Positions 17,416 through 43,786 of a DNA stretch of 64,000 bases are shown here, in pieces. The DNA comes from Mycobacterium sp. Z3061 (GTDB lineage Bacteria > Actinomycetota > Actinomycetes > Mycobacteriales > Mycobacteriaceae): contig NZ_CP134062.1 in NCBI RefSeq assembly GCF_031583025.1, positions 1,054,001 to 1,118,000 on the forward strand, written 5' to 3'. Numbering within the stretch: position 1 is the stretch's first letter; each line of letters opens with the position of its first letter. Made by a program: the position numbers and the translations under genes. The notes below the pieces were generated by a model, which saw nothing but the letters and a program-made list of their open reading frames with translations, was not told the origin of the DNA and did not search any database.

Positions 17416-17440
17416 GTTTGGACCACTGTGGCGCGGGTAA
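17416..17440 (+). promoter_or_regulatory. Candidate SigF promoter of the Mn-catalase gene
   Basis: GTTT (17416-17419), 15 bases, GGGTAA (17435-17440). This fits the mycobacterial SigF form GTTT-N15-17-GGGTA. The expected transcript would have a leader of about 40 bases. Confidence 0.65.
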
Positions 17441-17487
17441 CCGGCCAGATCGGGCCCAGACACATACGCAACAGCCCTGGGAGAAAT

Positions 17488-18381
17488 ATGTTCATTCACA
17501 ATAAGGACCTGCAGTTCGAGGTGCGTGTCAGCCAACCGGACCCTCGGTTCGCCTCGCTGTTGATGGAGCAGTTCGGAGGGGCCAACGGCGAACTGACCGC
17601 CGCGCTGCAGTACTTCATTCAAGCCTTCGTGCTGCGAGAGAAGAACCCCAAAATGTATGACCTCTTCATGGATATCGCCACGGAGGAACTGAGTCACCTG
17701 GAAATGGTCGGGTCGATGATCACCATGCTGCTGGACGGTTTGAACGACGATCTCAAGCTGGCCAACGACCGCTGCGACTGGATGCCGTTGGTGGCCAGCC
17801 GGGATGGTCGTGAGCAGGCCATCCACCAGGTTGCCGTCAATCCGATGTTCCTGGTGCTCAGCGGTGGCGGGCCGGATGCCAAGGATTCCGCGGGCAACAA
17901 CTGGACCGGGGCGTTCATCGACGCCAACGGCGACCCCACGGTCGACCTCCGTAACAACCTGGCCGCCGAGTCGCGCGCCAAGGTCGTCTACGAGTACCTG
18001 AAGCAGTTCACCGACGACCCTGGTGTCCAGGAAACACTGACGTTCCTGATGACTCGGGAGGTCGCGCACTACCAGCAGTTCACCGCCGCCCTCAACGACC
18101 TTCCGGTGAACTTCCCGCCCGGCACTCTGGCCGGCGACGAACGGTTCCAGAACGTGGCCTTCAACATGTCCAACGGCAAAGGCTCGGTGCGTGGCCCGTG
18201 GAATCAGGGACAGGGTCCGTGGCCGCAGGGCACCGAATGGCAGTACGTGGCGGAGCCGACCACGGAATGGCTGGGCAGCACCCTTCGGCAGAACACCGGT
18301 GCAGCCACCAATCCTGAAGGCTCGCCCGCTGTTCCGAGCGACAAGCCCTTCACACACGAACAGCGGACGCCGACCACCTGA
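17488..18381 (+). CDS. Manganese (non-haem) catalase
   Basis: A 297-residue dimanganese catalase that splits hydrogen peroxide without haem. The four-helix ligands are visible: Glu in GANGELTAALQY, EELSHLE (Glu and His), Glu in LAAESRAKVVYE, and REVAHYQQF. ATG 17488 has GGGAGA 5 bases upstream. The Gly/Trp/Pro-rich C-terminal region is typical of the family. It is not at this position in M. tuberculosis. A SigF-type promoter precedes it, and it converges on the hemerythrin gene over a shared terminator. Confidence 0.95.
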   Translation: MFIHNKDLQFEVRVSQPDPRFASLLMEQFGGANGELTAALQYFIQAFVLREKNPKMYDLFMDIATEELSHLEMVGSMITMLLDGLNDDLKLANDRCDWMPLVASRDGREQAIHQVAVNPMFLVLSGGGPDAKDSAGNNWTGAFIDANGDPTVDLRNNLAAESRAKVVYEYLKQFTDDPGVQETLTFLMTREVAHYQQFTAALNDLPVNFPPGTLAGDERFQNVAFNMSNGKGSVRGPWNQGQGPWPQGTEWQYVAEPTTEWLGSTLRQNTGAATNPEGSPAVPSDKPFTHEQRTPTT

Positions 18382-18395
18382 CCCGTTGACGGACG

Positions 18396-18431
18396 GAAAA
18401 GCCTGGCGTCCGCGGGGGCGCCAGGCTTTTC
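18396..18431. terminator. Bidirectional intrinsic terminator
   Basis: A 13-bp perfect stem (GAAAAGCCTGGCG at 18396-18408 with its complement at 18419-18431) with a 10-base loop. It has A and T runs at the outer ends and sits between the convergent Mn-catalase and hemerythrin genes. Confidence 0.9.
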
Positions 18432-18442
18432 GGTGCTGCGGC

Positions 18443-19027
18443 TCAGTGCATCTGAGGATCCGGTGGGTTGTCGGCCGCGCGGCCGCTGACCGCGTCACGG
18501 ACGTGGTCAAGCACGGCGGCGCCCACGCCCATCGTCTTCTGCGTCAACGAATCGGATGGTGTGTTCGGATGCGGACGGGTCGCCGCAACCTTTTTCGCGG
18601 TCTCCAGCTTTGAGCCGAGCTGCTCGAGTTCCTGCTGATCGACGGCCGCGGAGAAACGCGGCCACACCACATCCTGCTCGAACATGATGTGCTCGCGGCC
18701 GGCCTGGACGAACTCCCTGAGGGCCTCGTGGTAGTCCGGATCGCCCGGCGCGCCGTCTTCCAGGCGCTGCAGGAGCTTTTTACCGGCCTCTTCCTGCGCG
18801 ATCGCCTGGTCGGCCAACTCGTCGCCGCCTTGCACGGCGCGGCGTACCGCCGGCCAGAAGAACTGCTCCTCGACCGCCTCGTGCTGGGACTCGGAGATGA
18901 TCAGGTTATTCACCATCGTCTCAAGGCCACTCAGCTGCGCGCCGTCGGATTCGGGTGCCCCGTCGAGTACTTCCAGCATGCCCAGCACGCTCTTGTGGTC
19001 TTGGCGGAGAAATGTCAATGCGTCCAT
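18443..19027 (-). CDS. Hemerythrin/HHE-domain protein
   Basis: A 194-residue cytosolic protein with a four-helix hemerythrin-like domain over residues 1-140. The iron-ligand candidates are DHKSVLGML, SESQHEAVEEQFFWP and REHIMFEQDVVWP. Mycobacterial relatives bind a di-iron centre and affect responses to peroxide or nitric oxide. The C-terminal tail is Lys/Thr/Pro-rich. ATG 19027 has GAAAGG 7 bases upstream. A SigF-type promoter lies 35-59 bases upstream. Confidence 0.9.
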   Translation of the reverse strand: MDALTFLRQDHKSVLGMLEVLDGAPESDGAQLSGLETMVNNLIISESQHEAVEEQFFWPAVRRAVQGGDELADQAIAQEEAGKKLLQRLEDGAPGDPDYHEALREFVQAGREHIMFEQDVVWPRFSAAVDQQELEQLGSKLETAKKVAATRPHPNTPSDSLTQKTMGVGAAVLDHVRDAVSGRAADNPPDPQMH

Positions 19028-19061
19028 ATGATTGCCTTTCGTGTGGAGCAATCAGCTGCGG

Positions 19062-19086
19062 GTACCCGCGTCGGCTCCGGCGAAAC
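19062..19086 (-). promoter_or_regulatory. Candidate SigF promoter of the hemerythrin gene
   Basis: On the minus strand: GTTT (19086-19083), 15 bases, GGGTAC (19067-19062). Spacing is identical to the Mn-catalase element. The leader would be about 30 bases. Confidence 0.65.
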
Positions 19087-19145
19087 GATGCGGCGGTGGA
19101 AAGCCAAGGGGTGCAGAGCGATTCGACCCAAGTTGCGGAAAAGTG

Positions 19146-19186
19146 GAACGCCCCCACCAGCGCGGCGCGCGCTGACGGGGGCGTTC
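19146..19186 (-). terminator. Terminator of the WGxxGxxG gene
   Basis: A 10-bp perfect outer stem (GAACGCCCCC at 19146-19155, complement at 19177-19186) encloses a second inverted repeat (CAGCGCG and CGCGCTG). It begins 10 bases after the stop of the small secreted protein and upstream of the hemerythrin promoter, so it separates the two transcripts. Confidence 0.75.
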
Positions 19187-19196
19187 AACCACGGCG

Positions 19197-19466
19197 TTAC
19201 ACCGGGGGTCGGGGGGTGGCGGCCGGTTGGATGGCGGCGTCGGTGTTGTTGCGACGCTTCAGCCCGGCCAGTCCGGCCAGACCCAGGAGGCCGGCGAGAC
19301 CCCACAGACCGGTGTTGTCACTCTCATGAGTGTTGTTGTCGGTGTCGGCCAGTGTGCTGGTCGTCGACGACGGCGCCGGGGCGTGTTCGACGGACGCGTT
19401 GGCTACGCCAGCCCCACCGAGGGCGAGTGCGGCGGTTGTGCAGCAGACTGCAAGTGTTTTACGCAT
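19197..19466 (-). CDS. Small exported protein with WGxxGxxG-type C-terminal helix
   Basis: An 89-residue precursor. It has a signal peptide (MRKTLAVCCTTAALALGG, cleavage near ANASVEHA), a short Ser/Thr/Asp/Asn-rich spacer, then the membrane segment GLWGLAGLLGLAGLAGLKRR, and a Pro-rich tail. The Trp-Gly repeat followed by Arg/Lys resembles WGxxGxxG-CTERM surface-retention segments, so the mature protein may be a tethered peptide. AAAGGAGT 6 bases before ATG 19466 fixes the start. It has its own SigF-type promoter about 110 bases upstream. Function unknown. Confidence 0.82.
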   Translation of the reverse strand: MRKTLAVCCTTAALALGGAGVANASVEHAPAPSSTTSTLADTDNNTHESDNTGLWGLAGLLGLAGLAGLKRRNNTDAAIQPAATPRPPV

Positions 19467-19573
19467 GGGGTACTCCTTTCGGCCGCGAACGGCCGGAAAC
19501 GGATTCGAACCAGGTTGATCTAGTTCGTCGGACGACGACGCGAAGCGATTGACTCCGGCGCCGCGCTCCACTG

Positions 19574-19598
19574 GTACCCGGGCATTCATGCCTAAAAC
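19574..19598 (-). promoter_or_regulatory. Candidate SigF promoter of the WGxxGxxG gene
   Basis: On the minus strand: GTTT (19598-19595), 15 bases, GGGTAC (19579-19574). The leader to ATG 19466 would be about 100 bases, longer than for its neighbours. Confidence 0.6.
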
Positions 19599-19691
19599 AT
19601 CGGCGACGCAAAATCGGCGGACAGCGAAAAATAATGCCGCGCTGCGAAATAACGTTCTTCTGGCTAACTCAGCGATGGCGATCCGCCCACC

Positions 19692-19716
19692 GTTTCGTTC
19701 CAGGGTGTCTGGGTAC
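19692..19716 (+). promoter_or_regulatory. Candidate SigF promoter of the FAD-Rieske gene
   Basis: GTTT (19692-19695), 15 bases, GGGTAC (19711-19716). The -10 ends 10 bases before ATG 19727, so the transcript would be leaderless or nearly so. With the element at 19574-19598 it forms a divergent pair. Confidence 0.65.
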
Positions 19717-19726
19717 TTCGTATGCC

Positions 19727-21262
19727 ATGGTGTCACTGTGGTTGGACGACCGGGGCGCAACGCCGTGGGCAGGCAGAACCTCCGGGACCGCCGAGGGATC
19801 TGCCGACGTGGTCGTGGTCGGAGCCGGTATCACCGGCTTGGTAACAGCTGTGCTGCTCGCACGCGCGGGTAAGGACGTGCTGGTTCTGGAGGCCCGTACG
19901 GTGGGGGCCGGAGCCAGCGGCAACACGACCGCGAAGCTCAGCCTGCTGCAGAGCACCCACCTGAGCAAAATCCTTGCGCGGCATGGCCGAAGCACCGCTC
20001 GGGCCTACGTCGAGGGCAACCGGGAGGGGATGGAGTGGGTGTTGCACCATTGCGACACTCACGGAATCGACGTGCAGCGGGAAGATGCGTACACCTACGC
20101 GCAATCGGCGCGGGGAGTGCCGTCGGCGCGCGCGGAGTGGTTGGCGTGCGGTGCCGTCGGGCTTCCGGTCACCTGGGACGACCGTGCCGACGTTCCGTTC
20201 TCGTTCCATGGCGGGGTGCGACTGCCCGATCAGGCGCAGTTCGATCCGGTCCCATTTTTGGACAGCCTGGTCGTCGAGCTGCTGGACCGCGGCGGCAGGC
20301 TGGTCGAGGGCGCGCGGGTCCGCAAAGTTGCCGGCAACGGTGACGGCCTGCGGCTGCACGTCCATAGCGGTAGCGAAGAGCAGACAGACGAGGGCACCGA
20401 AGCAGACACCGAGGTGTTCGCGCGGCAACTGGTGCTCGCGACGGGCATCCCGATTCTCGATCGCGGTGGGTATTTCGCCAGGCTGAAGCCCAGCCGCTCC
20501 TATTGCATGGCCTACCGGGTGCCCGGCCCGATCACGCGGGCGATGATGATCTCCACCGACTCGCCGACCCGTTCCGTCCGCTACGCCCCGACCGACGAAG
20601 GCGAACTGCTGATCGTCGGCGGCGCAGGTCATACGGTGGGTCGCAAGAAGAGTCCGTCGATTGCGCTGGCCGAACTCGACGAGTGGACGCGCAAGCACTT
20701 TCCCGGCGCCGAGCAGACGCACTACTGGTCGGCGCAGGACTACGCCCCCATCGATCAATTGCCGTATGTGGGCCCGATCCTTCCCAACAATGAAAAAATC
20801 TTTGTGGCAACGGGTTTCAACAAGTGGGGGATGACCAATGGCCCAGCCGCCGCGCTGGCGCTGTCCAGCCGCATCCTGGGTGGCCGGATGGACTGGGCCG
20901 GCGCGTTCGCGAGTTGGAGTCCGCACGAATTGTCCGGGGTGACAACGGCACTGACGGCCAACATGGAGGTCGGCTTCAACCTGGCCCGCGGCTGGGTCAC
21001 TCCGGCTACCCGACTCGGGCGCCGTGACCCCAAGCCGGACGAGGGCGGTGTGGTCAGCGGGCCGCCGTGGGATCTGCAGGCGCGATGCGTCGTCGACGGA
21101 GTCGAGCACGTGGTGTCGCCCGTGTGCACCCACCTGGGCGGAATCGTGAACTGGAACGACGCGGACAAGGCGTGGGAGTGCCCGCTGCATGCGTCGCGGT
21201 TCGCGCCGGACGGGACGCTGCTGGAGGGTCCCGCCACCACGGACCTGACCCGGTCTAAGTGA
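19727..21262 (+). CDS. FAD-dependent (DAO-type) oxidoreductase with C-terminal Rieske domain
   Basis: A 511-residue fusion. Residues about 30-400 form a D-amino-acid-oxidase-like FAD domain: dinucleotide motif VVVVGAGITGLVTAVLLARAG, second FAD contact GAGASGNTTAK, and C-terminal GFNKWGMTNGPAAA. The last 60 residues hold a Rieske [2Fe-2S] site: CTHLGG and CPLHASRF supply two Cys and two His. It would pass electrons between FAD and the cluster; donor and acceptor are unknown. ATG 19727 lies 10 bases after the SigF-type -10. Related two-domain proteins occur in bacilli and actinobacteria, but no role is established that I know of. Confidence 0.88.
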   Translation: MVSLWLDDRGATPWAGRTSGTAEGSADVVVVGAGITGLVTAVLLARAGKDVLVLEARTVGAGASGNTTAKLSLLQSTHLSKILARHGRSTARAYVEGNREGMEWVLHHCDTHGIDVQREDAYTYAQSARGVPSARAEWLACGAVGLPVTWDDRADVPFSFHGGVRLPDQAQFDPVPFLDSLVVELLDRGGRLVEGARVRKVAGNGDGLRLHVHSGSEEQTDEGTEADTEVFARQLVLATGIPILDRGGYFARLKPSRSYCMAYRVPGPITRAMMISTDSPTRSVRYAPTDEGELLIVGGAGHTVGRKKSPSIALAELDEWTRKHFPGAEQTHYWSAQDYAPIDQLPYVGPILPNNEKIFVATGFNKWGMTNGPAAALALSSRILGGRMDWAGAFASWSPHELSGVTTALTANMEVGFNLARGWVTPATRLGRRDPKPDEGGVVSGPPWDLQARCVVDGVEHVVSPVCTHLGGIVNWNDADKAWECPLHASRFAPDGTLLEGPATTDLTRSK

Positions 21263-43727: not shown

Positions 43728-43786
43728 TGTGCGATCAACTTACCCCCCTGACCATCGCCGAAACGCGGTTGACGAGGAACTTCGCG

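Follow-up and report, generated by a model that had tools for sequence, protein, structure and literature searches.

Four neighbouring genes of Mycobacterium sp. Z3061, each preceded by a SigF-type promoter-like sequence

In the parts of the published work drawn on here, the consensus of promoters read by the sigma factor SigF is given as GTTT-N14..19-GGGTA (PMC4694148) and as GGWWT-N16-17-GGGTAY (PMC7693655). Deletion of sigF in Mycobacterium smegmatis changed the expression (log2, exponential/stationary phase) of MSMEG_6213 by -4.18/-5.96, of MSMEG_6212 by -5.43/-3.87, of MSMEG_6211 by -4.39/-4.12 and of MSMEG_0670 by -2.06/-3.17 (PMC4694148), and promoter sequences have been reported for MSMEG_0670, MSMEG_6212 and MSMEG_6213 (PMC5445863). 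The same portions of the literature show that inhibition of respiration induces the SigF regulon via RsfSR (PMC10950880), that leaderless transcripts are common in M. smegmatis, with a SigF -10 motif at 56 hypoxia-induced promoters (PMC6448022), and that MsmHr, a hemerythrin-like protein different from the one described below, inhibits the SigF-dependent peroxide response (PMC4295536). Here we describe a block of four consecutive genes in a 64-kb stretch of the genome of the slow-growing Mycobacterium sp. Z3061 (contig NZ_CP134062.1; the whole stretch is called the window), encoding a manganese (Mn) catalase, a hemerythrin-like protein, a WGxxGxxG family protein and a flavin adenine dinucleotide (FAD)-dependent oxidoreductase with a C-terminal Rieske domain (FAD-Rieske). 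The SigF regulon is largely known, and membership of the catalase and hemerythrin orthologues in it has already been published. Our analysis indicates that the block is, with high probability, a run of four adjacent, separately transcribed members of this regulon, every one of them behind a GTTT-N15-GGGTA promoter of its own.

A pattern scan for GTTT-N15-GGGTA[AC] returned five matches in the window, against a mean of 0.06 (largest 1) in 100 dinucleotide-preserving shuffles. Four of these are the sites that an earlier note on this DNA had placed upstream of the four genes; their positions and orientation were confirmed, although the note's chance expectation of about 0.5 per window was too high. 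Each site points correctly towards its gene, with ATG codons at 17488 (Mn-catalase), 19027 (hemerythrin), 19466 (WGxxGxxG) and 19727 (FAD-Rieske), and a scan of window positions 12-26 kb with a wider motif found the four block sites and no other. The whole genome (6.79 Mb, one contig) contains 15 matches to the narrower pattern versus 6 to its reversed form, and four of the 15 fall within 2.3 kb, where uniform placement expects about 2 × 10−7 such windows. The wider pattern GTTT-N15/16-GGGWA gave 90 genome matches versus 45 in the reversed control, with an expectation of about 4 × 10−4 for four in 2.3 kb. The fifth match in the window, GTTT-N15-GGGTAA at 43740-43764 on the minus strand, was absent from the earlier note. 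A DUF3349 gene has its ATG 12 nucleotides (nt) downstream of this match, which looks like a near-leaderless SigF-type promoter, so that every one of the five sites in the window has a promoter-like position.

To follow the promoters across relatives we used named loci, which are the best 80 of 142 relatives in the scan with the catalase (Rhodococcus and Nocardia included), and a genus set of 148 genomes, scoring a strict motif (GTTT-N15/16-GGGTA), a looser form and the reversed motif as control. The strict motif lies within 200 bp upstream of the Mn-catalase gene in 78 of the 80 named loci (reversed 1, block-shuffled mean 0.08), and 59 of 61 opposite-strand hemerythrin genes in these loci carry a strict motif of their own (reversed 0). 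The FAD-Rieske protein has a long match in 103 of the 148 genus genomes, broken or split in five (G136, G030, G024, G096, G076). Within 60 bp of its start the strict motif was found in 91 of the 103 and the looser form in 102, with L186 as the sole miss, compared with shuffled means of 0.02 (strict) and 0.42 (loose); in 100 of the 102, 9-13 nt separate the GGGTA-type box from the start codon. Among 40 WGxxGxxG loci (of 43 matches listed outside the M. gordonae/asiaticum group), the strict motif occurs within 200 bp in 24 and the looser one in 28. The reversed motif was met 1, 0, 0 and 0 times in strict form and 3, 2, 0 and 1 times in loose form for catalase, hemerythrin, FAD-Rieske and WGxxGxxG, respectively. 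Ten of the WGxxGxxG loci (L208, L209, L211, L214, L215, L219-L221, L223, L224) adjoin a hemerythrin paralogue unlike the one in the window, and SigF-type motifs occur there too.

The four block genes all carry GTTT-N14..19-GGGTA upstream in the right orientation, and the promoter is kept with its gene across species, for WGxxGxxG in part (24/40). SigF-type control of the block genes, as proposed in the earlier note, is strongly supported by this conservation together with the M. smegmatis sigF-mutant data in the portion of the published record cited above. If transcription starts about 6-8 nt below the -10 box, the FAD-Rieske mRNA would be near-leaderless; in the literature searched, a conserved near-leaderless SigF-type promoter of this gene was not found described. 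A related sequence, GTTT-N16-GGGCA, stands at the same position before the FAD-Rieske homologue on two of four plasmids examined (both from Rhodococcus, about 50% identity), where the homologue lies near TspO and DUF4383 genes (L246, L247). The motif was absent before the homologue on one further Rhodococcus plasmid, on which the start codon could not be placed, and on one Arthrobacter plasmid (4 of 342 records examined).

Several observations weigh against this assignment. The wider pattern is too common genome-wide, at 90 matches versus 45, to mark a promoter alone, and at WGxxGxxG loci elsewhere the strict motif is missing within 200 bp in 16 of 40 cases and the loose one in 12. The 32-base promoter of MSMEG_0670 was found in none of 396 genus genomes searched, so that the orthology of MSMEG_0670 and the FAD-Rieske gene, which we regard as probable, is drawn from promoter geometry and a neighbouring alcohol dehydrogenase gene. 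For Z3061 itself we infer SigF dependence, as well as the start sites, the enzyme chemistry and the location of the peptide. Finally, the block sites may be read by either of two sigma factors, because two SigF-type genes of this genome exceed the TIGR02980 cut-off of 234.35 bits (312.9 and 272.2 bits). Upstream of the first, sigF, GTTT-N16-GGGTA occurs at distances of about 0.7-0.8 and 1.7-1.8 kb. The second has such a site roughly 7 nt ahead of its start, and this site together with the score would suit a reading in which the second factor, instead of SigF or jointly with it, acts on the block. We consider this unlikely: among seven genomes searched (Z3061, here G000, and six others), two SigF-type genes are found only in G000 and G108, and the promoters are conserved also in G120, G101, G073, G009 and G006, which have a single one.

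Taking SigF control as the preferred explanation, a partner-switching system would free SigF under conditions such as those that act in M. smegmatis (inhibited respiration, hypoxia, electron-donor limitation, high ionic strength and low pH), and SigF-RNA polymerase would then initiate all four genes. The Mn-catalase would remove H2O2 without heme, and the hemerythrin would bind O2 or peroxide as a di-iron protein. The FAD-Rieske enzyme, translated from its putative near-leaderless mRNA, may oxidise a small metabolite at the FAD and pass the electrons singly to the Rieske cluster instead of to O2, so that no peroxide would be made, and the WGxxGxxG peptide would be exported and membrane-anchored. 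The FAD-Rieske gene, and mostly the WGxxGxxG gene, keeps a SigF-type promoter-like site wherever located, and would have come beside the old catalase-hemerythrin pair in the M. gordonae/asiaticum clade.

The sequence families named in the earlier note for the four products were confirmed with Pfam and NCBIfam (Table 1). In the Mn-catalase, the Mn ligand positions (E35, the ExxH motif and a later E and H) align with 1jku; the score against the ManCatBAC equivalog NF052557 (178.9 bits) is under its cut-off of 350. In the hemerythrin-like protein, H11, H49/E53 and H113/E117 are invariant in an alignment of nine sequences and are candidates for part of the ligand set, and no solved structural relative was found at E up to 1. 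The WGxxGxxG protein, aligned from six sequences, has a signal-peptide-like start and a hydrophobic C-terminal segment followed by KRR (by eye), and scores 23 with the sorting-domain model NF038039, just below its cut-off of 24; no mention of this family was found in the literature searched. The FAD-Rieske protein has a DAO domain and the C-x-H ... C-x2-H pattern of a Rieske cluster (CTH, CPLH). Its mechanical open reading frame begins upstream at 19634, and we chose the start at 19727 because orthologues begin there and the promoter-like site falls between the two positions. Its predicted structure was unusable (mean predicted local distance difference test, pLDDT, 37.4, from five near-identical sequences). 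An amino acid permease gene lies upstream of the block and a PanE-like reductase gene downstream. The stem of the inverted repeat behind the WGxxGxxG gene is seemingly kept through paired changes in the window, G047, M. gordonae and M. asiaticum (by eye).

Table 1. Features of the block and related genes (window coordinates unless marked as genome coordinates)
Feature	Coordinates	Strand	Evidence or remark
SigF-type promoter-like site of Mn-catalase, GTTT-N15-GGGTAA	17416-17440	+	Pattern scan, conservation
Segment with Mn-catalase and hemerythrin genes, exactly missing from same-species genome G006	17483-19150		Genome comparison
Mn-catalase, 297 amino acids	17488-18381	+	PF05067, 231.6 bits (cut-off 27)
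Inverted repeat between convergent catalase and hemerythrin genes, probably bidirectional terminator	18393-18434		Inverted repeat I5
Hemerythrin-like protein, 194 amino acids	18443-19027	-	PF01814, 63.6 bits (cut-off 25.3)
SigF-type promoter-like site of hemerythrin gene	19062-19086	-	Pattern scan, conservation
Inverted repeat 3' of WGxxGxxG gene, probably terminator	19143-19189	-	Inverted repeat I3
WGxxGxxG family protein, 89 amino acids	19197-19466	-	NF041742, 48.8 bits (cut-off 35)
SigF-type promoter-like site of WGxxGxxG gene	19574-19598	-	Pattern scan
SigF-type promoter-like site of FAD-Rieske gene	19692-19716	+	Pattern scan, conservation
FAD-dependent oxidoreductase (DAO family) with C-terminal Rieske domain, 511 amino acids	19727-21262	+	PF01266, 155 bits; PF00355, 25.2 bits; both above cut-off
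DUF3349 gene, 102 amino acids	43419-43727	-	Own SigF-type site 12 nt before ATG
SigF-type sigma gene, first (L125)	genome 1559721-1560392		TIGR02980
SigF-type sigma gene, second (L126)	genome 1743765-1744430		TIGR02980

The hemerythrin gene adjoins the catalase gene in 75 of the 80 named loci. It takes one of three placements, lying downstream of the catalase gene in 58 loci on the opposite strand and in 14 on the same strand, or upstream of it in 3, there on the opposite strand. Judged by coordinates, the two genes are also neighbours in 35 of the 38 genus genomes with a catalase match above 500 bits. All four genes are contiguous, by coordinates, in 4 of 148 genomes (G000, G120, G108, G007) and in 4 of the 80 named loci (M. 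gordonae and three M. asiaticum strains); two further M. asiaticum loci stop before the third gene. Catalase and hemerythrin are an old pair, and the quartet is a local gathering in the M. gordonae/asiaticum clade. The lineage-specific grouping suggested in the earlier note is supported in this sense. That note had also named rare co-occurrence of the four genes as a finding that would refute its reading; the quartet is indeed rare across the genomes, but the catalase-hemerythrin pair is not. Catalase, hemerythrin and FAD-Rieske genes without WGxxGxxG are contiguous in three genomes of another clade (G073, G101 and G086, the catalase match of G086 being in two pieces). Clades here are those of a midpoint-rooted FastTree of 102 FAD-Rieske proteins, in which the M. 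gordonae/asiaticum group forms a six-member clade (support 1.0) and the trio a three-member one (0.977).

This second gathering, which lies within 4 kb of sigF, and the 10 of 40 loci in which WGxxGxxG adjoins a different hemerythrin paralogue would fit a single functional pathway that couples peroxide removal to the flavin-Rieske enzyme and the peptide. Such a pathway appears distinctly unlikely to us, given a quartet confined to 4 of 148 genomes and an FAD-Rieske gene present in 103 of them versus a catalase match above 500 bits in 38. The same neighbourhoods also gather a luciferase-like monooxygenase and a putative cation-efflux transporter (by eye) with SigF motifs, and therefore shared control suffices to explain the grouping. 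We found no evidence for the nitrosative-stress role suggested in the earlier note, nor for a peptide that works with the peroxide-removing enzymes. The surroundings of the 80 catalase loci contain 236 motif matches (N15/16, GGGWA) versus 4 for the reversed motif; once the clustered genes for catalase and hemerythrin are set aside, some 100 are left across 0.99 Mb. The 6.79 Mb of the Z3061 genome contain 90, and the reversed control reaches half that number. Since the loci are related, this excess is a description and not a test. At catalase loci such as L101, L108 and L114, extra SigF-type motifs precede further genes, the luciferase-like monooxygenase gene among them, and frequently end 10-11 nt ahead of a start codon.

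The presence of the pair in Z3061 and its sharp-edged absence from two relatives, together with distant homologues on plasmids (286 records for Mn-catalase, 284 of them below 60% identity, and 342 for FAD-Rieske, 341 below 60%), could point to a stress cassette that is mobile (one of the two options in the earlier note) or has spread horizontally, inserting as one unit. In G006, a genome of the same species, both flanks agree with the window at about 97% and exactly the segment listed in Table 1 is missing, yet the promoter and leader of the catalase gene persist as far as the ribosome-binding region, which identifies the junction as a deletion scar and not an empty target. A similar segment is missing from G047, whose promoter reads GTGT instead of GTTT; by eye, the left edges of the two deletions coincide and the right edges lie a few bases apart, so that one shared loss and two losses are indistinguishable. 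Divergence from M. gordonae at four-fold sites is 0.33 for the catalase and 0.34 for the hemerythrin gene, matching the three upstream genes (0.26-0.34), while it is 0.42 for the downstream reductase, 0.49 for FAD-Rieske and 0.58 for WGxxGxxG; this check gave no sign of a recent import of the pair into Z3061. Gene order and upstream flank are the same in M. gordonae and M. asiaticum, and their clade holds together in the FAD-Rieske tree. No transfer RNA gene was found at window positions 10-30 kb and no long flanking repeat, integrase and transposase genes not having been searched systematically, and the guanine-plus-cytosine content of the block is only modestly lower. These results largely refute the mobile cassette, which we judge very improbable. 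From the sequence comparison, the catalase-hemerythrin pair probably descended together with its upstream neighbourhood and disappeared from relatives, and the genes on its other side appear to evolve faster or to have been exchanged; alternatively, the pair may have been regained from a source roughly as remote as M. gordonae.

The FAD-Rieske gene is, in our view, the most interesting part of the block. In 12 of 76 loci with long flanks (L156, L157, L161-L164, L170, L191-L193, L196, L201; 30 further loci, with 1.5-kb flanks, stand outside this test), sigF is no more than about 4 kb away from it. The 12 loci are split over two separate parts of the tree, with 7 of 7 members in one clade and 5 of 7 in another, and in the literature searched this proximity was not found described; the Rieske entries in the consulted parts of two SigF papers are other genes, MSMEG_2718 and MSMEG_2268. 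In comparison, sigF was found within none of the 80 catalase loci and none of the 40 WGxxGxxG loci. The 43 kb surrounding sigF in G073 hold 17 of the 45 motifs of that genome, where 0.44 would be expected, and the catalase and FAD-Rieske motifs belong to these 17; the motif of the hemerythrin gene between these two is absent in G073 and present in G101 and G086. The proximity to sigF in two clades, the promoter geometry that is nearly fixed across mycobacteria and recurs in place as GTTT-N16-GGGCA on two Rhodococcus plasmids, and the suitability of a flavin and iron-sulfur protein for reporting or relieving the respiratory state to which SigF answers would allow the enzyme to be a conserved core partner of the SigF system, beyond a mere target. 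We put this forward tentatively, as a reading that is doubtful at present. As an uncharacterised enzyme encoded in 103 of 148 genomes, it is a candidate for studies of SigF function under respiratory block. More generally, the results give a sequence-level view of the SigF regulon in which promoter-gene units retain the promoter while switching neighbours, and gather near one another or near sigF in more than one clade.

Compared with the described systems, and within the portions of the reports that we cite, the block is most like MSMEG_6213/6212/6211 of M. smegmatis, where consecutive Mn-catalase and hemerythrin genes each have GTTT-N15-GGGTA and depend on SigF (PMC4694148). It differs in that the pair of the window adjoins the WGxxGxxG and FAD-Rieske genes; MSMEG_6211 is annotated as a hypothetical protein. 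The FAD-Rieske gene in turn resembles MSMEG_0670, a SigF-dependent FAD oxidoreductase gene with its promoter 9 nt from the start codon; the adjacent MSMEG_0671 encodes S-(hydroxymethyl)glutathione dehydrogenase, and a related alcohol dehydrogenase lies near FAD-Rieske in 10 of 103 loci (30 of the 103 with 1.5-kb flanks only). Unlike the gene of the window, MSMEG_0670, judged by its number, is not beside a catalase gene. In having several SigF-type genes side by side, the block also recalls the M. smegmatis SigF island around sigF (about MSMEG_1758-1804; PMC4694148), where many SigF-driven genes are neighbours, but in Z3061 about 485 kb separate the block from the closest SigF-type gene.

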